Assembly (NCBI RefSeq): GCF_005860765.1
Contig: NZ_VCEI01000021.1
Location: 744,001 to 808,000 of the forward strand
Source of the DNA: Dyadobacter sediminis
GTDB lineage: Bacteria; Bacteroidota; Bacteroidia; Cytophagales; Spirosomataceae
Length of the DNA stretch: 64,000 nt
Reading direction: 5' to 3'
The notes under the pieces were generated by a model. The model made no database searches and was not told where the DNA came from. It was given only the letters and a program-made list of their open reading frames with translations. Numbering within the stretch: position 1 is the first letter of the stretch; each line of letters starts with the position of its first letter. Below are positions 35,497 to 50,431 of the stretch, piece after piece. The position numbers were made by a program, and so were the translations under genes.

Positions 35497-36117
35497 TTGA
35501 ATGTGAAGTGTGTAACAGAAAAAAGTGAGGACAAGATCAAAGAAGCGGCCAGAAGGGTTTTTCTGAAGAAGGGCTTTGACGGGACTACTTCGCGTGACAT
35601 TGCGCGGGAAGCAGACATGAACATTGCGCTGACCAATTATTATTTCAGAAGTAAGGAAAAGCTGTTTCTGGAAATCTTCAAGGATATCCTGGAATTGTAT
35701 TTTAAGAATATGGTGAATATCCTCAACAAACCGGTGGATATCAAAACCAAGATTTCGGACATGATCGAGAATGACTTCAAAATGATGAATGAAGAACCCG
35801 ATCTGGTAATTTTCATCATGAATGAGATCCACAAGGAACCGGAACGTCTTTTTCCTGATCTTTCATTTTTTAAACAGATCCGCTCGACCTTGTTCTGCAA
35901 GCAGCTGGATGAAGGCATTGCCAACGGTACATTGCGGCAAATCCACATTGAAAATATTATTCCGCTGATTAAAAGCTGTGTGGAGTTTATCTTTCTTGGA
36001 AAGCACATCCATAAAAAGATTTACGGCATGAGCGAAGAGGAATTTAACCGGTATGCGCAGGAGCAGAAAGAACATGTCAAAGCAATGATCTGTAATTACC
36101 TGATACTGGAAAGTTGA
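35497..36117 (+). CDS. TetR/AcrR family transcriptional regulator
   Basis: A 206-residue (or 204) one-component regulator. The N-terminal helix-turn-helix is clear: DKIKEAARRVFLKKGFDGTTSRDIAREADMN, then ALTNYYFRSKEKLF (about residues 12-60). The C-terminal ligand domain is helical and not recognisable to a subfamily. No in-frame ATG lies near the start; TTG 35497 or GTG 35503 are the possible starts. The sequence on both sides of the gene holds the same 19-base element in opposite orientations, so it may control itself and the genes to the right. Confidence 0.85.
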   Translation: MNVKCVTEKSEDKIKEAARRVFLKKGFDGTTSRDIAREADMNIALTNYYFRSKEKLFLEIFKDILELYFKNMVNILNKPVDIKTKISDMIENDFKMMNEEPDLVIFIMNEIHKEPERLFPDLSFFKQIRSTLFCKQLDEGIANGTLRQIHIENIIPLIKSCVEFIFLGKHIHKKIYGMSEEEFNRYAQEQKEHVKAMICNYLILES

Positions 36118-39181
<3,064 letters not shown>

Positions 39182-39185
<4 letters not shown>

Positions 39186-40186
39186 AAGAGAAAGTTTTTA
39201 TAACCGGAGCCAGCGGATTCATTGGTTTTCATCTGGTGGAAACTGCGCTGAAAGCAGGCATGGAAGTACATGCAGCCGTGCGCCCATCCAGTGATCTGAC
39301 TTTTCTGAAGAAGCTGAAAACGGATTCTCTTGTATTTGCAAACACCGATTTCAGTTCGCAGGAATCGCTGAAACACACACTTGAAAAGTCGGGCTGTGAG
39401 TATATTATTCATGCTGCGGGCGTAACAAAAGCCAAAAGTGCAGCGGCTTACAACCTCGTAAATGCCAATTACACACTTCATCTGGCGCAGGCTGCGCTGG
39501 CAACGGGCATTCCGCTGAAAAGGTTTGTTTTTCTGAGCAGTCTGGCGGCAATCGGGCCGCTGGCTTATGCAGCTGAACAGCCGATTACGGAAAACACTTT
39601 GCCGGTTCCGGTAACGGATTATGGCAGGAGCAAGCTGCTTGCCGAAAATTACCTTTCGGATGTTGAAAATTTACCGTTGACGATTATCCGCCCGACTGCC
39701 GTATATGGTCCGGGCGAAAAGGATCTTTTTGTTCTTTTCAAAACACTGAACAAAGGTCTGGACGCTTACATTGGCAATGGCCCTCAGCGGCTGAGCTTCG
39801 TGTATGTCAAAGATCTGGTGGCGGCAACAATGGCTGCTTTAAAGGAAAGCAGTAAAGAAGTCTCCGTTTACAATATTTCCGACGGTCATGCTTACGACCG
39901 GTATGCGCTGGCCGACAAGTTTAGGGAAATAAGCGGCAAAACCAGCCTTCGCACACACCTTCCGATGACACTGGTGAAAATGGTCGCCGGGTTGCTCGAT
40001 GCGGTTTATGCATTTTCAGCGGCAACGCCGGTTCTGAACAAAGAAAAATTAAAAGAGCTTACAGCGCCAAACTGGATCTGTAGTATAGACGCAGCCCGCA
40101 ATCATCTGCGGTACCGGCCGCAATACAACTTGCAGCAGGGACTTACCGAAACACTGATGTGGTACAAGGAAAATAAATGGCTCTGA
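39182..40186 (+). CDS. NAD-dependent epimerase/reductase, candidate ceramide reductase
   Basis: A 334-residue extended SDR enzyme. The cofactor loop ITGASGFIGFH is at residues 7-17; catalytic Tyr147 and Lys151 lie in TDYGRSKLLAE, with the Ser of LSSLAAIG upstream. In Bacteroidetes and Caulobacter, proteins of this type clustered with SPT reduce the 3-keto group of the sphingoid base or ceramide. The 4-base overlap with the acyltransferase gene makes that reading likely. After its stop there is a palindrome CCGGAATTCCGG (40213-40224) and a 94-base gap. Confidence 0.72.
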
Positions 40187-40280
40187 CATTTCTGTACCCT
40201 CTTGATCAACATCCGGAATTCCGGTGACTTGATTAACCGAAGGCTAAGGACTGCAAAATAACACGTTATGATGTTTAAAA

Positions 40281-42848
40281 ATGAAAACAACAATTAAGCC
40301 GGTATGGTTAAACATGCTCCTGATGATCTGTTTAGTACAGATTTTCAGCGGAACAGCCATAGCGCAAAACACAACAATCAAAGGAACGGTTACGGATGCA
40401 AAATCCGGCGAAACACTGCCGTATGTATCGATTCTGATTCCGGGTACGACAATGGGAACCGTCTCGGATGTTGACGGACGTTATGCACTAACGTTACGTG
40501 AAGAATACACGAAAGTTAAATTTACTTACATCGGTTACCTCAGCGTAGAAAAGGAAATCAAGCCGGGCGTTAGTCAGGTTATTGATGTAAAAATGTCGGT
40601 CGATGCATCCATGCTTAAGGAAGTAACGGTAAAAGGAAAAGCAAAATACCGCAACCGCGACAATCCTGCCGTTCAGCTGATCCGCGAAGTCATTGCGCAC
40701 AAAGACCAGAATAAAATGGCCAGCAATAATTACGTCGAGTACGAGCAGTATGAAAAAATTTCCTTTGCGCTGAGTAACCTTTCTGAAAATTTCAAGGAAA
40801 AAAGGATTTTCAAGAATTATCAGTTTTTGTTCAAAGATCAGGATTCGGCGGCGATCGGAGGCAAAAACATGTTGCCGGCCTACATTCAGGAAAAGCTTTC
40901 ACAGGTTTATTTCAGAAAAAATCCCTACACGAAAAAGCAGCTTGTACTCGCAAACCGCCGTGCCGAGTTTGATGCAAAATTTGTGGATAATGACGGTCTG
41001 AGCGCCTATTTCAACCGGCTTTATGAAGATATTAATCTTTATGACAATGACATTTCCATTGCAACCAACCTTTTGCTGAGCCCGATCGCCAATACGGCGC
41101 CGACATTTTACAAGTTTTTTATCCGCGATACGGTGAAAACCAGCACGCCGTGGCTTGTGGAGCTGGGATTTGTCCCGAGAAACAAAACCGATATGCTTTT
41201 TGAAGGCAAGCTGTTTGTCACGCTGGACGGGAATTATGGCGTTCAGAATGCATATCTGACAGTTAACAAAGACATTAACCTGAACTTTATGCGTGATCTG
41301 GAAGCGCATATTGAATTTGAAAAAGGCACAGACGGACGTTACCGGCTGAATAAAACAAGTCTTGCCATGGAATTTGCACTTGGTGAGAAGAATGCAGGTT
41401 TTTACGGACAACGGATTGTCAATTTCAAAAACTACATTATCAATCAGAGCCGGCCGGACAGCACGTACAAAGGTCCGGGCGAAGAAATTGCCTACAATCC
41501 GGATGTGAAAGTCGGAGAGTCTTTCTGGAACACGGCAAGGCACATTCCGCTGGATAAAATGGAGCTGGATATTTATAAAAATATCGATACCCTGCAGACG
41601 ATTCCATCTTTCCGGCGCACCATGGATATTTCCACGCTTTTGCTTTCGGGGTATAAATCCTTGGGTAAAGTGGAAATCGGGCCGGTGAATACGTTTTACA
41701 GTTTCAACCCGATTGAAGGTTTCCGGCTGCGTTTCGGCGGAAGAACAACGACCGATTTAAGCAAAAGGGTTTATTTCGAAACGTATGCGGCATACGGCTT
41801 CAAGGACAAGAAATGGAAGTATTTCCTGAGCGGCACGTATTCGTTCAATAATAAATCCGTTTATCATTTTCCGCTGAACTACATCCGTGCGAGTTATCAG
41901 CGCGATACCAAAATTCCCGGTCAGGATCTGCAGTTTGTTCAGGAAGACAATTTTCTTTTATCCTTTAAAAGAGGGGAAAACAACCGCTGGCTGTACAATG
42001 ACGTGTACAAAATGGAATACGTCAGGGAACTTGAAAGTCACTTTTCTTACCGGATCGGTTTTACGCAATGGAGGCAGACGCCCGCCGGAATACTTCGGTA
42101 CGAACGACTGAATGACGAAGGCGGTCTGCAGAATGCCGGCACGCTGAGCAACACCGAAGCCAATCTGGAACTCCGTTATGCGCCGAACGAGCAGTTTTAT
42201 CAGGGAAAATTGTACCGTACGCCGATTATCAACAAATACCCGATTTTCACACTGCGCTACAATGCCGGTCTGAAAGGTGTGTTTGAAGGACAAAACCGGT
42301 ACCATAATCTTACGGCCAATGTTGCTAAAAGGGTTTATTTATCCCAGTTCGGCTATGCGGATGTGACTGCAGAAGGCGGCTATATTTTTGGAAATAAAGT
42401 CCTGTTTCCGCTGCTGACCATTCACCGCGCCAACCAGACTTATGCCTATCAGTTGAATTCCTATAACCTGATGAACTTCCTGGAATTTGTCAGTGACCAT
42501 TATGCAAGTCTGGATATTCAGTATTATATGAATGGATTTTTGTTCAACAAGATTCCGCTGATCAAAAAACTGAAATTAAGAGAAGTGTTCAGTTTCAAAG
42601 GACTGATGGGCGGCTTGCGTGACGAAAACAATCCGGGTCTGAATCCGTCACTTTACCGCTTTCCTGTGGATGAGGCCGGCAAGCCGATCACGTATACGCT
42701 GTCGAGAGAACCGTACATTGAAGGAAGTATAGGCATTGCCAACATTTTCAAACTGCTCCGCGTAGACCTTGTAAAAAGATTTACGTATCTGGATAATCCC
42801 AATGTTTCGGAGTGGGGCGTGCGGGCAAGGTTCAGGCTCGATTTTTAA
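40281..42848 (+). CDS. DUF5686 outer-membrane protein with carboxypeptidase-D regulatory-like domain
   Basis: An 855-residue envelope protein. It begins with a signal peptide (MKTTIKPVWLNMLLMICLVQIF...AIA) and a CarboxypepD_reg-like beta-sandwich domain (residues about 30-115; IKGTVTDAKSGETLPYVSILIPG), which in Bacteroidetes is common at the N-terminus of TonB-linked and outer-membrane proteins. The rest matches the DUF5686 family, ends in beta-rich sequence with a terminal aromatic (RLDF), and probably forms an outer-membrane barrel. Function is unknown. It stands between the ceramide and head-group gene groups, all in the same direction. Confidence 0.85.
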   Translation: MKTTIKPVWLNMLLMICLVQIFSGTAIAQNTTIKGTVTDAKSGETLPYVSILIPGTTMGTVSDVDGRYALTLREEYTKVKFTYIGYLSVEKEIKPGVSQVIDVKMSVDASMLKEVTVKGKAKYRNRDNPAVQLIREVIAHKDQNKMASNNYVEYEQYEKISFALSNLSENFKEKRIFKNYQFLFKDQDSAAIGGKNMLPAYIQEKLSQVYFRKNPYTKKQLVLANRRAEFDAKFVDNDGLSAYFNRLYEDINLYDNDISIATNLLLSPIANTAPTFYKFFIRDTVKTSTPWLVELGFVPRNKTDMLFEGKLFVTLDGNYGVQNAYLTVNKDINLNFMRDLEAHIEFEKGTDGRYRLNKTSLAMEFALGEKNAGFYGQRIVNFKNYIINQSRPDSTYKGPGEEIAYNPDVKVGESFWNTARHIPLDKMELDIYKNIDTLQTIPSFRRTMDISTLLLSGYKSLGKVEIGPVNTFYSFNPIEGFRLRFGGRTTTDLSKRVYFETYAAYGFKDKKWKYFLSGTYSFNNKSVYHFPLNYIRASYQRDTKIPGQDLQFVQEDNFLLSFKRGENNRWLYNDVYKMEYVRELESHFSYRIGFTQWRQTPAGILRYERLNDEGGLQNAGTLSNTEANLELRYAPNEQFYQGKLYRTPIINKYPIFTLRYNAGLKGVFEGQNRYHNLTANVAKRVYLSQFGYADVTAEGGYIFGNKVLFPLLTIHRANQTYAYQLNSYNLMNFLEFVSDHYASLDIQYYMNGFLFNKIPLIKKLKLREVFSFKGLMGGLRDENNPGLNPSLYRFPVDEAGKPITYTLSREPYIEGSIGIANIFKLLRVDLVKRFTYLDNPNVSEWGVRARFRLDF

Positions 42849-42883
42849 GAGAAGAAAAGGGCTCAGTTTAAAACACCAGTTAT

Positions 42884-43597
42884 ATGAATTATGCAATTAT
42901 AGCAGCCGGCGAAGGTTCGCGCCTGGCGAAGGAAGGGTTCAAGCTTCCGAAGCCCATGGTCAGCCTTTACGGAGAAATGCTTATAGATCGTCTGATCGGA
43001 ATTTTTATGCGTAACAACGCGCAGCGGATCAAGATCATCATCAATGAAGAATCGGAAAGCCTTGAAAAACATCTGACCGAGTTAAGCCGTACGTTTCCGA
43101 TTGATATCATTAAAAAATCAACGCCGAGTTCACTGCACAGTGTTTACGAGCTGTTGAAATCCGATCCGGAACTGGATTCCGTTTGCCTTACAACAACGGA
43201 TACCGTTTTCAAGGAAGAGGAATTCAGCGAATTCATTGACTATTTTCAGGAAAACAGCAGCATAGACGGCTTGATGGCAGTTACTTCTTTCATTGATGAT
43301 GAAAGTCCGTTGTATGTAAGCGTAAATTCGCAAAATGGAATTACTGCATTTACCGATCAGAATGTGACGCAAACCTCATTTGTGTCCGGCGGAATCTACT
43401 GTCTGAAAAAAAATGCCATTGCCGTTGTGGACAAAGCGGTGAAAAATGGTACAAGCAGAATGCGGAATTTTCAGCGGCAATTGCTGGAAAACGGCATCAG
43501 ACTGGAAGCCTATCCGTTCTCGAAAATCGTGGATGTGGATCATGTCAGCGACATTCGTACGGCGGAGCTTTTTTTAAGTCCTGAAAATGCCTACTGA
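42884..43597 (+). CDS. Sugar-/polyol-phosphate nucleotidyltransferase
   Basis: A 237-residue NTP transferase of the MobA-like/GlmU-like type. The nucleotide-binding signature AAGEGSRL (7-14) and KLPKPMV (20-26) are present, and the central TTTDTVF and later GGIYCLKK match the metal- and substrate-binding positions. Relatives make CDP-choline, CDP-inositol or NDP-sugars. The neighbours (kinase, phosphatase, CDP-alcohol phosphotransferase) suggest it activates a polyol phosphate with CTP. The specific base and polyol are inferred from context, not seen. Confidence 0.8.
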   Translation: MNYAIIAAGEGSRLAKEGFKLPKPMVSLYGEMLIDRLIGIFMRNNAQRIKIIINEESESLEKHLTELSRTFPIDIIKKSTPSSLHSVYELLKSDPELDSVCLTTTDTVFKEEEFSEFIDYFQENSSIDGLMAVTSFIDDESPLYVSVNSQNGITAFTDQNVTQTSFVSGGIYCLKKNAIAVVDKAVKNGTSRMRNFQRQLLENGIRLEAYPFSKIVDVDHVSDIRTAELFLSPENAY

Positions 43598-43668
43598 ATA
43601 TAATACAGACACCAATTAACCAAATTACCCTTTAAATGACCGGCGGCTTTTACCGGTCAGCAGCGTAC

Positions 43669-44538
43669 ATGAATGAATTAGAAATACTTGGCGTGCACCG
43701 TAACCGGAAGTTTTCGCCGAATCATATAGGAAATGACGATGCCATTTTTTCTCTGACAGCCCAGGAACTTGTTAAAATGGGATGCGGAATCAGCATTTGT
43801 TCCGAAGATGAACTGCTGGGAATGAATGAAGTCACGCAGCAGAAAATATTTACAATGGCCCGTCAAAAAGAAGTTGTAAGGAAACTGCAGGAATTTGAAA
43901 AAAACGGAACGCAGGTTATCAATTCGGCATTCGGCATTGAAAACTGTTACCGCACCAATCTGACCAATGCGCTGAACCTGAACAACATTCCGGTTGCAGA
44001 AAGTTACATTGTTCCGACTTCTTACAGCGACAACGATGTTTTTGATAAAATAGACAGCAAAGGGTACTGGATCAAGCGCGGAGATTTTCATGCAATCCAT
44101 AAAGAGGACGTTTCCTTTGCAAATACACGAGATGAAGCCAAGGAAATCTTGCGCGAGTATGCACTGCGGGATATTCCCGATGCAGTTATTTCCGGACATC
44201 TGATCGGCGATCTGGTGAAATTTTACGGCGTGCGCGGTACCGATTTTTTCTTCTGGTTTTATCCTTACGATAACAATCATCACAAGTACGCTGATTACCA
44301 AAGCATCAACGGAAATTCTGTTTATCATGCGTTCGATGCGGAGAATTTAAAAAATGTAGCGACCGTCGCAGCGGAAGTGGTTGGAATAGCTATTTATGGA
44401 GGAGATGCCATTGTCGGCAAAGACGGAAGTTTCCGGATTATTGACCTCAACGACTGGCCGAGTTTTGCACCCTGCCGGGATCAGGCCGCCGGCCATATCG
44501 CACGCATGCTTTACAATCAATTTACCAACCAGAATTAA
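43669..44538 (+). CDS. ATP-grasp fold protein
   Basis: A protein of about 289 residues whose C-terminal half looks like an ATP-grasp enzyme: KGYWIKRGD as the first nucleotide-binding strand, HLIGDLVKFYGV as the middle, and GGDAIVGKDGSFRIIDLNDWPSF with a metal-binding Asp/Asn pair. ATP-grasp enzymes ligate carboxylates to amines, and a subgroup phosphorylates inositol phosphates. Either could fit a head-group pathway. I start at 43669; an ATG at 43636 adds residues encoded within a GACCGG...CCGGTC hairpin and is less likely. The stop shares one base with the next start. Confidence 0.62.
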   Translation: MNELEILGVHRNRKFSPNHIGNDDAIFSLTAQELVKMGCGISICSEDELLGMNEVTQQKIFTMARQKEVVRKLQEFEKNGTQVINSAFGIENCYRTNLTNALNLNNIPVAESYIVPTSYSDNDVFDKIDSKGYWIKRGDFHAIHKEDVSFANTRDEAKEILREYALRDIPDAVISGHLIGDLVKFYGVRGTDFFFWFYPYDNNHHKYADYQSINGNSVYHAFDAENLKNVATVAAEVVGIAIYGGDAIVGKDGSFRIIDLNDWPSFAPCRDQAAGHIARMLYNQFTNQN

Positions 44539-45515
44539 TGGAGACAACTACTTCAGGCAAAAGCGGAAAAAAAGAGGAGGCAGTCAAATCCGGTTCAGCT
44601 TTCGAAAATTCACTCAAGTCCAGCGATACCGAAGAACAGATCGATATCTGGTTTTACCGTCCAATCGGTTACCAGATTGCATTATTTTGTGCAAAAGTAG
44701 GCATCAGGCCCAATCCGGTTACGATCGTCAGCATTTTCTTCGGGGTTGCCGCCGGAATACTTTTCTATTATCAGGAACTCTGGATCAATGTAATCGGCAT
44801 GCTGCTGCTGGTATTTGCCAATTCGCTCGACAGCGCCGACGGGCAGCTTGCCCGCATGACGAACGACAAAAGCCGGCTCGGCCGGATTCTAGACGGTGCC
44901 GCGGGTGATTTCTGGTTTATTGCCATTCACATTGCCATTTGCCTCCGCAGCCAGAATGAAGGCTGGAGTGCATGGATATGGGTTCCGGGCGTACTCGCCG
45001 GCGCTTCGCACGTGGTGCAGTCGGCCATGGCGGATTATTACCGCAATGTGCATTTGTTCTTTATCAAAGGAACTTCCGGAAGCGAGCTGGACAGTTCACG
45101 GGACTTGCAGCAGGAATACGACCGCCTGAGCTGGTCTTCCGATTTCGGAATGAAATTCATTGCCAGAACGTATCTGAACTATACGAAACTGCAGGAAAGC
45201 TTTTCACCGCAGCTTCAGAAACTGCTTGCGCTTGTACGGGACAAATACCGCAACGGCCTTCCGAATGAACTTGTCGTTGATTTCCGTGCGCACAACAAGC
45301 CGTTGATGAAATATACGAACATTGTCCAGTTCAATACGCGGGTTTTGTTTCTGTTTCTATGGCTTTTTCTGGATCAGTCATGGATTTATTTCTTTTTTGA
45401 CATGTTTGTCCTGAACCCGATCCTGATTTATATGATCGTCAATCAGGAAAAAGTAAGCCGCTATTTTTACAAGAAAATCCTGAACGGAAAGACGAATGGG
45501 TACCAAACTGTATAA
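44538..45515 (+). CDS. CDP-alcohol phosphatidyltransferase family protein with altered motif spacing
   Basis: A 325-residue membrane enzyme of the CDP-alcohol phosphotransferase family, which moves a phospho-alcohol from CDP to an acceptor lipid or alcohol. The core motif is NSLDSADGQLARMTNDKSRLGRILDGAAGD; in residues Asp98-x2-Asp101-Gly-x2-Ala-Arg106 ... Gly115-x3-Asp119, then four residues, then Asp124. The family consensus has three residues between the last two aspartates. Several hydrophobic segments lie at 62-95 and 265-310. The 41-residue N-terminal extension is polar. It overlaps the next gene by 20 bases and the previous by one, so it is coupled to both. Confidence 0.85.
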   Translation: METTTSGKSGKKEEAVKSGSAFENSLKSSDTEEQIDIWFYRPIGYQIALFCAKVGIRPNPVTIVSIFFGVAAGILFYYQELWINVIGMLLLVFANSLDSADGQLARMTNDKSRLGRILDGAAGDFWFIAIHIAICLRSQNEGWSAWIWVPGVLAGASHVVQSAMADYYRNVHLFFIKGTSGSELDSSRDLQQEYDRLSWSSDFGMKFIARTYLNYTKLQESFSPQLQKLLALVRDKYRNGLPNELVVDFRAHNKPLMKYTNIVQFNTRVLFLFLWLFLDQSWIYFFFDMFVLNPILIYMIVNQEKVSRYFYKKILNGKTNGYQTV

Positions 45516-46575
45516 AGCTGTTTTTCTGTTCATAGGAATTGTTTCGCTGAGCTATATGATTTATAGCACCGGAATGCTTGTAATCTGGGAAAATATCCAG
45601 CGTACCGGATTGTGGTTTATTCCAGTAATCGGAAGCTGGCTGCTGATTTATCTGCTGAATGCCTTTGCGTTCCGTGCCATTATCCGCGAGCCGGCCATGC
45701 CCGAAAGCAATATTTCCTTTCGTTCAGTTTTGCGGCTTACGATTTCGGGCTATGCTATCAATTACATTACGCCGTTTGTAGCACTGGGCGGAGAGCCGTA
45801 CCGGATTCTGGAACTGAAGCCCGCGCTTGGCATTCAGAAAGCAACGTCTTCCGTGCTGTTGTACGGCCTGATGCACATGTTTTCGCATGTTATTTTCTGG
45901 CTTGCTTCCATTATCCTCATCGTGGCCGTCGTGCCGCTGAACAATATGATGCTTGCCGGCTGCGGACTTTTACTTGTTACGGGGCTGGTTCTTGGTTACT
46001 GGTTTATCAATGTGTATAAAAAAGGCTTTACCGTAAGTACTTTTCGCTTGCTGGAAAAAATTCCTTTTATCCGAAAAAAAGCGAATGCCTTTGCGCAGAA
46101 AAATGCTGAAAACTTGTTTGAGGTGGACGAACAGATCCGCATTTTATACGCCGAACGGAGAAATGTATTTTACGCTTCGCTGTTTTACGAGTTTGCAGCC
46201 CGGCTGATTTCCTGTGCGGAAATCTATTTTACAGCGCATGCGATCGGCTTGGAAATGACTTTGTCGCAATCATTGATCGTGAGTTCGGGTTCGTCGCTGT
46301 TTGCCAATCTGGTTTTCTTTTTTCCGATGCAGCTGGGAACACGCGAAGGCGGACTGGCACTTGCGCTGAGCAGCGTAGGCCTTCTGGCTTCCAAAGGAAT
46401 TTTTATCGGAATCGTCATGCGCATCCGTGAAATTGTATGGATCGCCATCGGACTTGCGCTTATTAACCGCAAGGTCAAAAACAGGAACCCGAACAGTGAC
46501 AAGGATAATGATGATAAAAACATGGAGCCTGTTCCGGTCGGGGCGGTGAACACATTCAGAAAGCAGAATTTATAA
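45496..46575 (+). CDS. Flippase-like integral membrane protein (LPG synthase TM region family)
   Basis: A 359-residue polytopic protein with about eight hydrophobic segments, of the UPF0104/lysylphosphatidylglycerol-synthase-TM type. Characteristic stretches are SGYAINYITPFVALGGEPYR and SGSSLFANLVFFFPMQLGTREGGLALA. Homologues are associated with lipid or glycolipid export; the fused domain in MprF flips lysyl-phosphatidylglycerol. Its start lies inside the end of the CDP-alcohol phosphotransferase gene, suggesting that it moves the product of that enzyme. A role in transporting the head-grouped lipid is inferred from this coupling. Confidence 0.8.
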   Translation: MGTKLYKAVFLFIGIVSLSYMIYSTGMLVIWENIQRTGLWFIPVIGSWLLIYLLNAFAFRAIIREPAMPESNISFRSVLRLTISGYAINYITPFVALGGEPYRILELKPALGIQKATSSVLLYGLMHMFSHVIFWLASIILIVAVVPLNNMMLAGCGLLLVTGLVLGYWFINVYKKGFTVSTFRLLEKIPFIRKKANAFAQKNAENLFEVDEQIRILYAERRNVFYASLFYEFAARLISCAEIYFTAHAIGLEMTLSQSLIVSSGSSLFANLVFFFPMQLGTREGGLALALSSVGLLASKGIFIGIVMRIREIVWIAIGLALINRKVKNRNPNSDKDNDDKNMEPVPVGAVNTFRKQNL

Positions 46576-46619
46576 AAAACAGTATCCGCTAGAACGGGTA
46601 TGATTGAAAACAAACAATT

Positions 46620-47333
46620 ATGATTAAAGGAATTTTACTTGATTACGGCGGAACAATTGATACAAACGGCCTGCATTGGGCGAATGTATTGTGGGAAAGT
46701 TATCAGCAGAATCAGGTAAATGTGGACAGAGACGCATTTGCAAGTGCCTATACATTTGGTGAAAGGGCACTGGCACTGAATCCGATCATCAAACCGCATC
46801 ATGTTTTTTACGATGTATTGTTCCTGAAAGTGGAGCAGCAGTTTGCTTTTTTGAAGGAAAAAGGCTTTTCCATGAATGATGAAGCCATCCAAGCCATTGC
46901 GAGTGCCTGCAATCATTTTGCACGCACAACAGTAGAAAAAGCAGCGCCGGTTCTGGCGGAACTGGCAAATGATTATCCGCTGGTAATGGTTTCCAATTTT
47001 TACGGCAATATCAACAGCGTTTTGAAGGATTTTGGAATCAGAGAATATTTTCAGTCCGTTGTGGAATCGGCGGTTGTGGGTGTACGCAAGCCCGATCCGC
47101 AGATTTATCAGCTTGGCGTTGATGCACTGGGCTTTGATCCTGCAGCATGCGCTGTTGTGGGCGATTCGTACAGCAAAGACATTCTGCCGGCTAAAAAGCT
47201 GGGCTGCAGAAGTGTCTGGATAAACGTGAAAGGCTGGGATGAAGCCACGGATCACGAACAGAAGCATGCAGATGCAGAGATTTCCGATTTTGCACAATTG
47301 CCGGAAACCCTGAAAAATTTAGGTTCATTGTAA
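46620..47333 (+). CDS. HAD family hydrolase
   Basis: A 237-residue haloacid dehalogenase-type phosphatase. Motif I is LLDYGGTID with Asp8 as the likely nucleophile; motif II Ser lies in VMVSNFYGN, the conserved Lys in GVRKPDPQIY, and motif III in VVGDSYSKDILPAK. The cap is helical (class I). In the present setting it may dephosphorylate a polyol phosphate or remove a side product. The substrate is not visible in the sequence. Confidence 0.85.
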   Translation: MIKGILLDYGGTIDTNGLHWANVLWESYQQNQVNVDRDAFASAYTFGERALALNPIIKPHHVFYDVLFLKVEQQFAFLKEKGFSMNDEAIQAIASACNHFARTTVEKAAPVLAELANDYPLVMVSNFYGNINSVLKDFGIREYFQSVVESAVVGVRKPDPQIYQLGVDALGFDPAACAVVGDSYSKDILPAKKLGCRSVWINVKGWDEATDHEQKHADAEISDFAQLPETLKNLGSL

Positions 47334-47382
47334 ACTTTGTTGTGGCACGATTAATGCCGCAATGGAAATTAAAAGAAACAGT

Positions 47383-48291
47383 ATGTACGACATTTGCACC
47401 ATAGGGCATATTACCCTGGATAAGGTTGTTACGGCGAATTCCGTCAAATACATGCCGGGCGGCACTTCCTTTTACTTTTCAAAAGCACTCAGGCAGTTTG
47501 ATGTAAATTATACGCTGGTAACTGCACTGGCAGAAAAGGAAAGTCACATTGTCGCCGGCCTGCGCGAGGAAAATATTGAAGTATTTTCTCTGGATAGCGA
47601 ATACACGGTTTATTTCGAAAACATTTACAGCTTTAATCAGGATCACCGCGAGCAGAATGTACTGCACAAAGCGGCGCCTTTCACGCCTGAACTGATGCCG
47701 GCCATTGATGCGAAAATTTTCCATCTCGGGCCGTTGCTTTCCGACGATATTTCTGCCGATCTGGTTAAACAGCTGGCTGCAAAAGGGCTGGTTTCACTGG
47801 ATATTCAGGGTTTTCTGCGCTATGTAAAAGATCAAAAGGTTCTGTATAAAGACTGGGCCGAAAAGAAAGAAGTACTTCCGCATGTGTTCACGCTGAAAGC
47901 CAATGAATTTGAAATGGAAGTCGTGACCGGCACGAGCGATGTCCGCAAAGGTGCGCAGTATCTGGCCGATCTGGGTGTGAAAGAGGTGATTATTACGCTT
48001 GGCAGCAAAGGTTCGCTGATTTACAAGGACCATGCATTTTTCCAGATTCCGGCCTATAAACCTGCGGCAATCGTAGATGCAACGGGCTGCGGAGATACGT
48101 ACATGGCCGGTTATTTAAGTAAAAAAGTGCAGGGCGCGGATGTTCAGGAAGCGGGCGAGTTCGGTGCAGCCATGGCGACGCTGAAAATCCAGTCGTCGGG
48201 ACCGTTTTCCGGCGATCCGGAAATGGTGGAAGAAGTCCTTCGTTCCGGCGAATGCGACAGGGAAATGATTGCGCAAGCAATGTTATTATAA
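47383..48291 (+). CDS. PfkB family kinase, candidate inositol kinase
   Basis: A 302-residue ribokinase-like sugar/polyol kinase. The N-terminal GG signature is YMPGGTSFYFSK (23-34), and the C-terminal DATGCGDTYMAGY (232-244) holds the anion hole and the catalytic Asp238. The combination GG(T/A)SF and SLDIQGFLRYV (138-148) is, from memory, shared with plant myo-inositol kinase rather than with ribokinase or fructokinase, and the genes around it suit a polyol phosphate pathway. The exact substrate must be tested. The start at 47383 begins the protein at the first beta strand; an ATG seven codons upstream is also in frame. Confidence 0.8.
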   Translation: MYDICTIGHITLDKVVTANSVKYMPGGTSFYFSKALRQFDVNYTLVTALAEKESHIVAGLREENIEVFSLDSEYTVYFENIYSFNQDHREQNVLHKAAPFTPELMPAIDAKIFHLGPLLSDDISADLVKQLAAKGLVSLDIQGFLRYVKDQKVLYKDWAEKKEVLPHVFTLKANEFEMEVVTGTSDVRKGAQYLADLGVKEVIITLGSKGSLIYKDHAFFQIPAYKPAAIVDATGCGDTYMAGYLSKKVQGADVQEAGEFGAAMATLKIQSSGPFSGDPEMVEEVLRSGECDREMIAQAMLL

Positions 48292-48299
48292 CAATTTTA

Positions 48300-48878
48300 A
48301 TGATGATGAAATACGTGTTTAGCATACTGACGGCATTTTGCCTGGTGCTGTTTTCGTATTCAGAAAGCCATTCCACTGATAGGAAATCAACTGAGAAATC
48401 CGTTGATTCCGATGACTTTCCGGTACCAACCAATGTTCCCGGACTGCTGTTTTATATTCAGCGTGACCCGAATTCCAATACCATTTGCTACCAGCTGAAT
48501 GTGGACAAGCAGGGGCGGATCAGTGAAAAAAATCCGGTCAATACATTCTGGATCCGTTATACGGACGGAGGCGTGCGCAAAGACCTGAATTACCTTCAGA
48601 GAAAATTTGCATACGGTATCAATTCCAAACAGACCGGAAATTCCTCTTTTGAACTCAGGTCTGTAGCTTACTCCAAAATGCCGCTGTACCTTCGGAAAGA
48701 CAGTAAAGACGAATATCATGTTTATGCCAGCATCAACAAAAGGGAATGCATCCTGAACAGGGTTTTCATTCATATAGACGGTGGCACGTTCTGGTCGCCG
48801 AACGTACTTTACATCGAACTGAAAGGAACGGATACTGCCACGGGAAAGACAATAATTCAGCGTATTAAACCAACCTGA
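48300..48878 (+). CDS. DUF4833 domain-containing secreted protein
   Basis: A 192-residue (or 190) protein with a signal peptide (MKYVFSILTAFCLVLFSYSES). The mature part contains the DUF4833 family stretch, with YIQRDPNSNTICYQLNV, NTFWIRYTDGG and KFAYGINSK; it is mostly beta-structured. DUF4833 proteins have no known role. It lies 8 bases after the PfkB kinase gene, so it belongs to the same transcript. Three consecutive ATGs (48300, 48303, 48306) can start it. It could bind or process the lipid product in the periplasm, but this is a guess. Confidence 0.78.
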   Translation: MMMKYVFSILTAFCLVLFSYSESHSTDRKSTEKSVDSDDFPVPTNVPGLLFYIQRDPNSNTICYQLNVDKQGRISEKNPVNTFWIRYTDGGVRKDLNYLQRKFAYGINSKQTGNSSFELRSVAYSKMPLYLRKDSKDEYHVYASINKRECILNRVFIHIDGGTFWSPNVLYIELKGTDTATGKTIIQRIKPT

Positions 48879-48956: not shown

Positions 48957-49706
48957 ATGACAAATTCGCCGGATTTTGAGCAGGACGAAGTCTTTAAGGA
49001 TGAAATTACAAAAGTTTCGGATTTCAAGTTCGGAACAACCGTAGTGAAGGTTTTTGACGACATGGTCAGCAGATCGGTTCCGTACTATAATGAAATGCAG
49101 CGCATGGTGGGGGAAATAGCTGCTGATCACGTGAAGGAAGGTTCCTGCCTGTACGATCTCGGCTGCTCTACAGGTACAACAATGATCGAAGTGGACAAGC
49201 TGATTCCTTCCGACATCCGCTTTATAGGCATTGACGAGTCACCTGAAATGCTTGCGAAATGCGATGTCAAGTTAAAAGAAGCAGATTTTGTCCGTCCGTA
49301 CGATCTGGTTACAGGTGATCTGCATGAGCCGCTCCCGATCCAGAATGCGTCCGTGGTGATTCTGTGCCTTACGCTTCAGTTTGTCCGCCCGCTTTACCGC
49401 GAAAGGCTGCTCCGGAATATTTACGCCGGCCTGAACCCGGGCGGTGTTCTGATTCTGGTGGAGAAAGTACTTGCGGAAAGCACCGTTTTCAACCGCGATT
49501 TTATTAAATATTATTACAATTACAAGCGTCGCAATCATTACAGCGAAATGGAAATTTCCCAGAAAAGAGAAGCACTGGAAAACGTTCTGATCCCGTACAA
49601 GCTTTCTGAAAACCTGCTTCTGCTGAAAGAAGCCGGCTTCGGGGATTGTGAAATCTTCTTCAAATGGTATAATTTCTCCGGATTAATAGCTTATAAAAAA
49701 TCATGA
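48957..49706 (+). CDS. CmoA-like carboxy-S-adenosylmethionine synthase / SAM methyltransferase
   Basis: A 249-residue class I methyltransferase fold protein. It aligns by eye with E. coli CmoA over most of its length: FDDMVSRSVPYYNEMQRMVG, LYDLGCSTGTTM (SAM loop), LTLQFVRP, GLNPGGVLILVEK, and HYSEMEISQKREALENVLIPY. CmoA converts prephenate and SAM to carboxy-SAM, which CmoB uses to modify tRNA wobble uridine. No cmoB is seen here. The following gene overlaps by 4 bases and encodes an ICMT-like methyltransferase, an unusual partner. It could instead be a plain methyltransferase. Confidence 0.8.
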   Translation: MTNSPDFEQDEVFKDEITKVSDFKFGTTVVKVFDDMVSRSVPYYNEMQRMVGEIAADHVKEGSCLYDLGCSTGTTMIEVDKLIPSDIRFIGIDESPEMLAKCDVKLKEADFVRPYDLVTGDLHEPLPIQNASVVILCLTLQFVRPLYRERLLRNIYAGLNPGGVLILVEKVLAESTVFNRDFIKYYYNYKRRNHYSEMEISQKREALENVLIPYKLSENLLLLKEAGFGDCEIFFKWYNFSGLIAYKKS

Positions 49707-50431
49707 TCGCCATCGGTAATTTCTTTTTCAGGTTCAGGAATGTATTGTTTATTTTCCTGTATCTGCTGCTTTTTATACCTTCACCCATGTTGTTTACACC
49801 GGAAGCCTTTGGTGAAAAATATTATTTGTTACCGATCATCCTTGGACTGCTTGTTACATTTTCCGGTGAACTGATCCGCGGAATCACCATTGGCCTTGCT
49901 TACATTATCCGGGGCGGAAAGGACAAAAAGGTTTATGCGGAAAAACTGGTCACCGAAGGCATTTTCAGGCATTGCCGCAATCCGTTGTATGTCGGGAACA
50001 TTCTGATGCTGCTGGGTGTGGGCATTCTTTCCAATTCCCTTATATACGTTGCCGTAGTGATGCCTTTGTTTCTTTTTATCTACCAGGCGATTGTGCTTGC
50101 AGAAGAAAACTTTCTGCGCAACAAGTTCGGTGCGCAGTTCGACAGTTACTGTGCGCGTGTGAACAGATGGCTGATCAATTTCAACGGGATCGGTGCAACG
50201 TTTAATGGTATGAGGTTCAATTACAAACGCTGGCTGCTCAAAGAATACAACACGCTGTTCGTATGGATGACGGGCATCATTGCCATTCTGTTGTTTAAAT
50301 ATCCCCAGCTGGTTCCGGATGAGGAAAACCGGATGAAAACATTTGTCATTATCGTGCTGGTTCTGGGCGCCGTTTACGGATACATCAAGTACCTGAAGAA
50401 ATCAGGAAGAATGACAGATGCCGTTGCCTGA
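49703..50431 (+). CDS. ICMT/PEMT-like membrane methyltransferase
   Basis: A 242-residue polytopic protein of the isoprenylcysteine carboxyl methyltransferase / phospholipid methyltransferase type. The SAM-binding signature is RHCRNPLYVGNILMLLG, followed by the AEENFLRNKFGAQFDSYCARVNRW segment typical of this family; hydrophobic segments lie at 7-30, 43-65, 95-130 and 185-235. Such enzymes methylate lipid head groups or prenylated thiols. The overlap with the CmoA-like gene and the neighbouring lipid cluster suggest a lipid substrate, which is inference. Confidence 0.78.
   Translation: MIAIGNFFFRFRNVLFIFLYLLLFIPSPMLFTPEAFGEKYYLLPIILGLLVTFSGELIRGITIGLAYIIRGGKDKKVYAEKLVTEGIFRHCRNPLYVGNILMLLGVGILSNSLIYVAVVMPLFLFIYQAIVLAEENFLRNKFGAQFDSYCARVNRWLINFNGIGATFNGMRFNYKRWLLKEYNTLFVWMTGIIAILLFKYPQLVPDEENRMKTFVIIVLVLGAVYGYIKYLKKSGRMTDAVA

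Follow-up and report, generated by a model that had tools for sequence, protein, structure and literature searches.

Inositol sphingolipids shape the membrane and capsule of gut Bacteroidota. To our knowledge, half of the predicted inositol sphingolipid pathways have never been tested in vitro. The question raised by the present locus is whether a gene cluster lying behind the serine palmitoyltransferase (SPT) gene of Dyadobacter sediminis (Spirosomaceae; genome 6.2 Mb) makes a lipid of this kind, and from which source its inositol phosphate would come. The analyzed DNA, hereafter the window, was a stretch of 64,000 nt. An earlier note on this DNA had proposed that CDP-inositol is made here from free inositol and transferred directly to ceramide by the products of seven genes that run in one direction with overlaps or short gaps. 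All seven open reading frames (ORFs) were found on the + strand within 42884-48878. The gene families named for them were also recovered, as Pfam matches were obtained for the nucleotidyltransferase (NTP), CDP-alcohol phosphotransferase (CDP-OH), LPG_synthase_TM, HAD, PfkB, and DUF4833, and the ATP-grasp call, for which Pfam gave no match at 0.001, was borne out by an AlphaFold model (mean pLDDT 88.8) that matched ATP-grasp enzymes.

The reading favored here is an operon for inositol phosphoceramide that works through CDP-inositol and starts from free, presumably scavenged inositol via a kinase, and a probability of roughly 0.7 is given to it. In the proposed route, the PfkB kinase very probably phosphorylates free myo-inositol with ATP, NTP probably converts inositol phosphate and CTP to CDP-inositol, and CDP-OH probably transfers phospho-inositol to a lipid. 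The most likely acceptor is the dihydroceramide made via the SPT genes that belong to this operon. An ATP-grasp enzyme resembling inositol 1,3,4-trisphosphate 5/6-kinases (ITPKs) might place a phosphate on the inositol, and the HAD phosphatase might take one off, along the route. The flippase-like protein, DUF5686, and DUF4833 could, at a guess, deal with the completed lipid in the envelope.

The source of inositol phosphate was considered first. The PfkB gene (47362..48291, + strand; PF00294) encodes a relative of TM0415 and is proposed to specify an ATP-dependent myo-inositol kinase that replaces inositol-phosphate synthase (MIPS), the enzyme by which relatives derive inositol phosphate from glucose. 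The lack of a MIPS gene, pointed out earlier for the stretch itself, was extended to the whole genome, in which no match to PF01658 was found. In a sample of 121 genomes of the family, where the NTP module was called by a nucleotidyltransferase match at E 1e-20, 33 genomes carried a module, namely, 21 the NTP module and 12 a module like that of Bacteroides thetaiotaomicron (BT-like), recognized by a CDP-OH gene resembling PIP synthase; none carried both, the two being mutually exclusive in this one family. A source gene, either the kinase or MIPS, was present in 33/33 module genomes versus 0/88 module-free genomes. When counted by genus (36 genera), it was present in 8/8 module genera versus 0/28 others (p 3e-8). 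All 21 genomes with NTP had the kinase, 16 of them as the only source gene, and the 12 BT-like-module genomes were divided into eight with MIPS only, one with both, and three with the kinase only.

Outside the family, a phylum sample of 198 genomes was used. Four of its 14 NTP-matching genomes (G083, G100, G141, and G159; E 1e-9 to 1e-12, 22-26% identity) were set aside as carrying other nucleotidyltransferases, and of the 10 kinase matches, the six with identities of 27-35% were not scored as this kinase. Beyond the family, NTP was matched strongly (E below 1e-40) in eight genomes with nine loci; all eight had MIPS, and the MIPS gene directly followed the HAD gene in eight of the nine loci, the contig of the ninth ending nearby. 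In two Parapedobacter species (L180 and L183), MIPS and the kinase occurred together in one SPT operon. In other families (G033 and G099), the kinase was also found apart from the module, in genomes that also have MIPS. Thus, the kinase occupies the slot that is held by MIPS in most relatives, and the source of inositol phosphate has been replaced. An independent argument for inositol as the material of this cluster comes from the kinase variant, since MIPS and an inositol kinase are interchangeable at a single operon position.

The conservation of the cluster was compared in the window and 20 fetched family loci. The gene order SPT, GNAT-like, reductase, DUF5686, NTP, ATP-grasp, CDP-OH, flippase-like, HAD, PfkB, and DUF4833 was the same in 20/20 fetched loci. 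The check suggested by the earlier note, namely, whether the seven-gene order recurs beside SPT in other genomes, thus had a clear outcome, as the order was repeated in 21/21 NTP-bearing family genomes; a chance grouping of the genes was rejected on the basis of this identical order. Named genomes were then scanned with an ATP-grasp profile, and the best 80 of 577 confirmed stretches, among them loci of named Bacteroidales and Sphingobacteriaceae, were taken as the best-80 set. NTP and CDP-OH stood beside ATP-grasp in 80/80 of these loci and HAD in 76/80, the four misses being on truncated contigs. The inositol-phosphate source in the set was the kinase only in 29 loci, MIPS only in 38, both in 2, and neither within the fetched DNA in 11, and the exact order was kept in 29/29 kinase-only loci. 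Among the 11 source-less loci are some on truncated contigs and those of Pedobacter, in which a divergent MIPS is encoded elsewhere in the genome. In Pedobacter cryoconitis, this gene lies 15 kb from SPT, in another part of the genome, and an APH-family kinase and a glycosyltransferase are located just upstream of the cluster (L158:6805-8936). Alignments were made from subsets of loci (A1, 20 rows; A2, 19; A3, 18; A4, 20; A5, 35 of 81; A6, 23), and the trees, drawn without support values, were used lightly.

The kinase sequence was also consistent with an inositol substrate. Its closest relatives in the PDB were entries of the bacterial protein TM0415 (1vk4, E 4.4e-30), which phosphorylates myo-inositol with pyrophosphate (PPi) (Nagata et al. 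2018, PMC5931981). The motifs that the earlier note likened to plant myo-inositol kinase, GG(T/S)SF and DIQGFLR, were both located in the protein, the former as GGTSF. The four inositol contacts of TM0415, D11, N78, Q141, and R145, correspond to D20, N87, Q149, and R153 in the window kinase, and all four are kept in 18/19 rows of alignment A2, the exception (L124) having Leu for N78. Together with the replacement of MIPS by the kinase, this conservation upholds inositol as the polyol. In the case of the phosphate donor, the TM0415 determinants of PPi binding R229, R232, and M266 are A, C, and I in the window kinase, the first two matching ATP-type enzymes, K171 is kept, and F221 is Y; the TM0415-type donor motif RXGRGD is replaced by ATGCGD. 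A PPi-dependent kinase like TM0415 was rejected since two of the three PPi-binding basic residues are gone (R229 and R232), although K171 is kept, and a donor site of the ATP type is expected. The PPi-type RXGRGD is present in a distant PfkB protein encoded at L124 (G124:C1:2952552-2953421), in a genome that also has a MIPS-type cluster. Moreover, S89 of TM0415 corresponds to Gln in the window kinase; a homologue with the same Gln yields a product other than Ins(1)P, and because of this Gln, Ins(3)P, the product of MIPS, is a possible product of the kinase.

The link to sphingolipids was assessed from the genes that precede the cluster. The SPT gene (36862..38067, +) scored 724 bits with NF047600, versus a curated cut-off of 640. 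It is followed by a GNAT-like protein (38064..39185, +; weak GNAT match), a candidate ceramide-pathway acyltransferase, and by an NAD-dependent epimerase/reductase (39182..40186, +; PF01370), a candidate 3-ketosphinganine or related reductase, both of conserved order. The seven genes do lie behind these three on the same strand, as described before, with a CarboxypepD_reg and DUF5686 outer-membrane-type protein (40281..42848, +; PF18939, PF13715) in between. This gene had been left out of the seven-gene run and is part of the unit, being present in 20/20 fetched family loci. SPT was in the same operon at 31/31 kinase loci of the best-80 set. The occurrence of such clusters in organisms lacking sphingolipids had been named as evidence that would refute the proposal. 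SPT exceeded the cut-off in 25 of the 26 own or named cluster genomes searched, the exception being one metagenome-assembled genome, so that such an occurrence was not seen in the testable genomes; eight more distant cluster genomes had only SPT relatives of 479-526 bits, under the cut-off of 640.

The surroundings of the BT-like module were compared as well. In either module, CDP-OH is flanked by DUF5686 and DUF4833. Where the BT-like module occurs in other families, DUF5686 stands before CDP-OH and DUF4833 after it or fused to it, followed by a fatty acid hydroxylase and a PAP2-type gene; at five such loci (L240 and L244-L247), SPT was inside the fetched stretch in 3/5 and MIPS in 5/5. The BT module makes phosphoinositol dihydroceramide (PI-DHC), which is also made by B. 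vulgatus and P. veroralis, species that lack the BT genes (Heaver et al. 2022, PMC9246714). Because the two modules have these surroundings in common, the comparison argues for PI-DHC as the likely end product of the window module too.

The two central steps depend on NTP and CDP-OH. The NTP gene (42884..43597, +; PF00483, NTP_transferase) would encode a CTP:inositol-phosphate cytidylyltransferase. Its profile aligned with Thermotoga maritima 4jd0 over positions 5-224 of 236, with uridylyl- and thymidylyltransferases scoring alike, and 61 PDB sequences were retrieved at E 0.01 with mixed nucleotides (uridylyl-, thymidylyl-, and cytidylyltransferases). CTP is the presumed nucleotide. One distant cluster (L118) has two NTP matches, near 2632 and 5268. 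The CDP-OH gene (44538..45515, +), proposed to transfer inositol phosphate to a lipid, matched PF01066 (CDP-OH_P_transf) at 44.2 bits versus a gathering score of 22. In the signature D1xxD2GxxAR...GxxxD3xxxD4, D1-D3 are present in the window and D4 is Gly. The same Gly was found in 20/20 family, 9/9 distant MIPS-type, and 80/80 best-80 loci (110 with the window, some genomes being counted twice), and D4 is kept in 7/7 transferases of the BT-like module (module A) and 2/2 outside relatives. The eight signature residues of CDP-alcohol transferases were called absolutely conserved by Clarke et al. 2015 (PMC4634129). Because D4 is missing, the enzyme would have to use another base or none, which raises the question of how a CDP-alcohol transferase works without its presumed base. 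His158, a candidate for such a base, is invariant in alignment A4. Regarding the route proposed earlier, the CDP-inositol logic, the sphingolipid link, and the start from free inositol were supported, and that reading was largely right overall; ceramide as the direct acceptor is what we infer.

Several points weigh against this reading. The association between module and source gene (Fisher p 2e-30) comes from one family and is uncorrected for ancestry. Five of the 21 NTP-module family genomes have MIPS besides the kinase, each on a contig other than that of the cluster. TM0415 has a Km of 12 mM for myo-inositol, and its true substrate may differ (PMC5931981). In the case of NTP, the top profile match was a uridylyltransferase, the sequence does not separate CTP enzymes from UTP/dTTP enzymes, and the score with NF041135, the NCBIfam family of inositol-phosphate cytidylyltransferase (IPCT), was 31.5 bits versus a cut-off of 580. 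A change of D4 to N, at the residue missing from the window CDP-OH, nearly abolished the activity of a PIP synthase (PMC4634129). Finally, the simplest scheme, with three steps, requires neither ATP-grasp nor HAD.

The HAD gene (46620..47333, +; PF00702/PF13419), proposed to take a phosphate off the inositol head group, resembles soluble HAD subfamily IA phosphatases in NCBIfam, and the ATP-grasp gene (43636..44538, +) is a proposed inositol-phosphate kinase, ITPK-like by sequence profile. Both accompany MIPS and kinase clusters alike and are as conserved as the other genes, although the earlier note had assigned a role to neither. The ITPK kinase group is best known from eukaryotes. When a profile of 20 ATP-grasp sequences was searched against the PDB, the best match was ITPK4 (inositol 1,3,4-trisphosphate 5/6-kinase 4; 7pup, E 9e-6), followed by the graspetide ligase PsnB (5e-4) and then by human ITPK1 and an Entamoeba ITPK (0.004-0.007); amino-acid ligases other than PsnB reached E 0.98 at best. 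A single-sequence search returned only PsnB (E 0.51). The Foldseek search of the model placed D-Ala ligases and ArgX first, RimK at rank 16, and the first ITPK at rank 24. A kinase is favored by sequence, not by fold. That fold ranking, the second place of PsnB, and an NCBIfam match to the RimK family below threshold (29.3 bits vs 143.4) speak for a ligase, rather than a kinase, that would attach an amino acid to the head group; in view of the ITPKs found below 0.01 and the distance of the other ligases, this assignment is possible but doubtful. An inositol-phosphate kinase activity, if confirmed, would place a bacterial protein of a lipid pathway in the ITPK group.

A role for the ATP-grasp/HAD pair can be proposed tentatively, with the odds against it: the pair may shift or protect a phosphate group of the inositol as part of a relay by which the lipid's stereochemistry is fixed. 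In such a relay, MIPS or the PfkB kinase would give Ins(3)P, the ITPK-like enzyme would add a phosphate at O1, NTP would activate the O1 phosphate to give a CDP-inositol phosphate, the D4-less CDP-OH would move it to ceramide, and HAD would remove the 3-phosphate. This would explain the presence of ATP-grasp and HAD in both MIPS and kinase clusters. If true, this relay would add a third route by which bacteria reach inositol lipids, one that employs an ITPK-like enzyme of bacterial origin and a transferase lacking D4.

A different lipid acceptor is implied by the scheme put forward for a homologous cluster (PMC9246714), in which CDP-inositol reacts with diacylglycerol to give phosphatidylinositol and a second enzyme, proposed to be HAD, moves the head group to dihydroceramide. 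The PAP2-type enzyme of the BT-like module performs such an exchange from phosphatidylinositol (PI-DAG). However, no PAP2-type gene was found within the window's operon, the operon being the extent of that search; a protein like soluble HAD subfamily IA seems to have an unlikely fold for lipid exchange, and the constant presence of SPT genes at the kinase loci also disfavors the scheme, which is considered unlikely for this cluster.

The direct CDP-inositol route must also be weighed against a kinase that acts on a sugar or another cyclitol, giving another phospho-polyol head group. The PfkB protein reaches no NCBIfam equivalog cut-off, the substrate of TM0415 is unsettled, and six of the nine distant MIPS-type loci (L115-L120; genomes G031, G070, G152, G188, G074, and G132) have CDP-OH preceded by a class III aminotransferase and followed by a Gfo/Idh/MocA dehydrogenase. 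These two genes could indicate an amino-inositol head group. However, MIPS fills the place of the kinase in homologous clusters and coexists with it in Parapedobacter, and the four inositol contacts are conserved, so that a polyol other than myo-inositol is quite improbable. NTP and PfkB families do occur widely in sugar metabolism, but an ordinary surface-polysaccharide or compatible-solute cluster, beside SPT by coincidence, is hardly credible, since the order beside SPT is kept in all 21 family genomes and all 29 kinase-only loci, and no glycosyltransferase was found among the ORFs of at least 90 aa in 36862-48878.

Two of the remaining genes would, at a guess, act at the envelope. The flippase-like membrane protein (45496..46575, +; LPG_synthase_TM, PF03706) precedes HAD, and the operon ends with DUF4833 (48252..48878, +; PF16117), a predicted secreted or envelope protein. 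The AlphaFold model of the latter was all-beta (pLDDT 86.7), and the fold search gave no PDB match at E 0.001, nor below E 0.1. Outside the window's module, DUF4833 was found at 30 places in 28/395 genomes; in 20 fetched loci, the BT-like module lay beside 6, a divergent CDP-OH and GtrA at 1 (L238), and neither at 13, indicating a partial link to inositol lipids. DUF4833 was not found in the literature searched. At one locus (L107:14994-16283), a CDP-OH transferase is fused to DUF4833 and followed by a PAP2_3 gene; a kinase gene lies approximately 2.4 kb away on the other strand, and the genome has no MIPS. Seven of the nine distant loci (L113 and L115-L120) have MlaE, ABC ATPase, and MlaD genes between NTP and ATP-grasp, which suggests dedicated transport of the product lipid. 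A TetR-type regulator (35497..36117, +; PF00440), possibly of the operon, lies near or upstream of SPT in 18/20 fetched family loci. Behind the operon, at 48957-50431, lie a CmoA-type methyltransferase gene, scoring 250 bits versus a cut-off of 193, and one that is PEMT-like, and both also follow it in the Dyadobacter loci examined.

A prediction follows from the proposed route: MIPS-free Dyadobacter should need external inositol for inositol lipids, and the head group should be labellable from the medium.

Finally, the cluster was compared with known systems. The PfkB fold is common to the window kinase, TM0415 (the PPi-dependent inositol kinase of Thermotoga maritima), and the myo-inositol 3-kinase of T. 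kodakarensis, and TM0415 also has the inositol contacts in common with it; however, the PPi motif RXGRGD is absent from the window kinase, and the context of the latter is lipid synthesis instead of inositol catabolism. Like the window, the archaeal and Thermotoga CTP:inositol-1-phosphate cytidylyltransferase/DIPP synthase combines an NTP transferase with a CDP-alcohol phosphotransferase, whereas in the window the two are separate proteins in a lipid context, with D4 missing and a score far under the family cut-off. In the case of the ITPK family, the profile similarity lies in the C-terminal ATP-grasp part, and the window type comprises bacterial proteins of approximately 290 aa encoded in an operon, putative kinases for which the fold search does not single out ITPK.

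B. thetaiotaomicron BT_1522-1526 has the same likely end product and a DUF5686-type neighbor, and the BT-like module of other Bacteroidota is located at SPT similarly to the window module. However, BT_1522-1526 uses CDP-diacylglycerol, PIP synthase, the PgpA phosphatase, and a PAP2 inositol phosphorylceramide synthase, whereas a PIP synthase query (the module-A transferase) gave no match in the window genome and PAP2 is absent from the operon. The closest likeness is to the alternative cluster of B. vulgatus and Prevotella, described by Heaver et al. 2022 (PMC9246714) as unconfirmed and consisting of MIPS, an NTP transferase, a CDP-alcohol phosphatidyltransferase, and HAD, with LPG-synthase-type and carboxypeptidase-regulatory-like neighbors; CDP-inositol was proposed there, and moderate homology was noted in Sphingobacteria. 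In the loci analyzed here, clusters of either kind include ATP-grasp, but neither this term nor DUF4833 occurs in the main text of that paper as available, and in the literature consulted no work on a kinase-type cluster or later work on the alternative cluster was found beyond that paper, reviews, and lipidomics, nor was an ITPK-like profile of ATP-grasp or the loss of D4. Homologues of NTP, CDP-OH, and HAD are all in the window, the B. vulgatus cluster being likened by its description, and so are the LPG-synthase-type (PF03706) and carboxypeptidase-regulatory-like (PF13715/PF18939) companions. The window differs in having the PfkB kinase in place of MIPS and adds SPT, the GNAT-like protein, and the reductase in the same operon, as well as DUF4833. 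The window core is therefore of the kind of this alternative cluster, for which the cluster itself and CDP-inositol were already proposed in 2022, and the new points are its start through a kinase, the resemblance of one member to ITPK, and the loss of D4.

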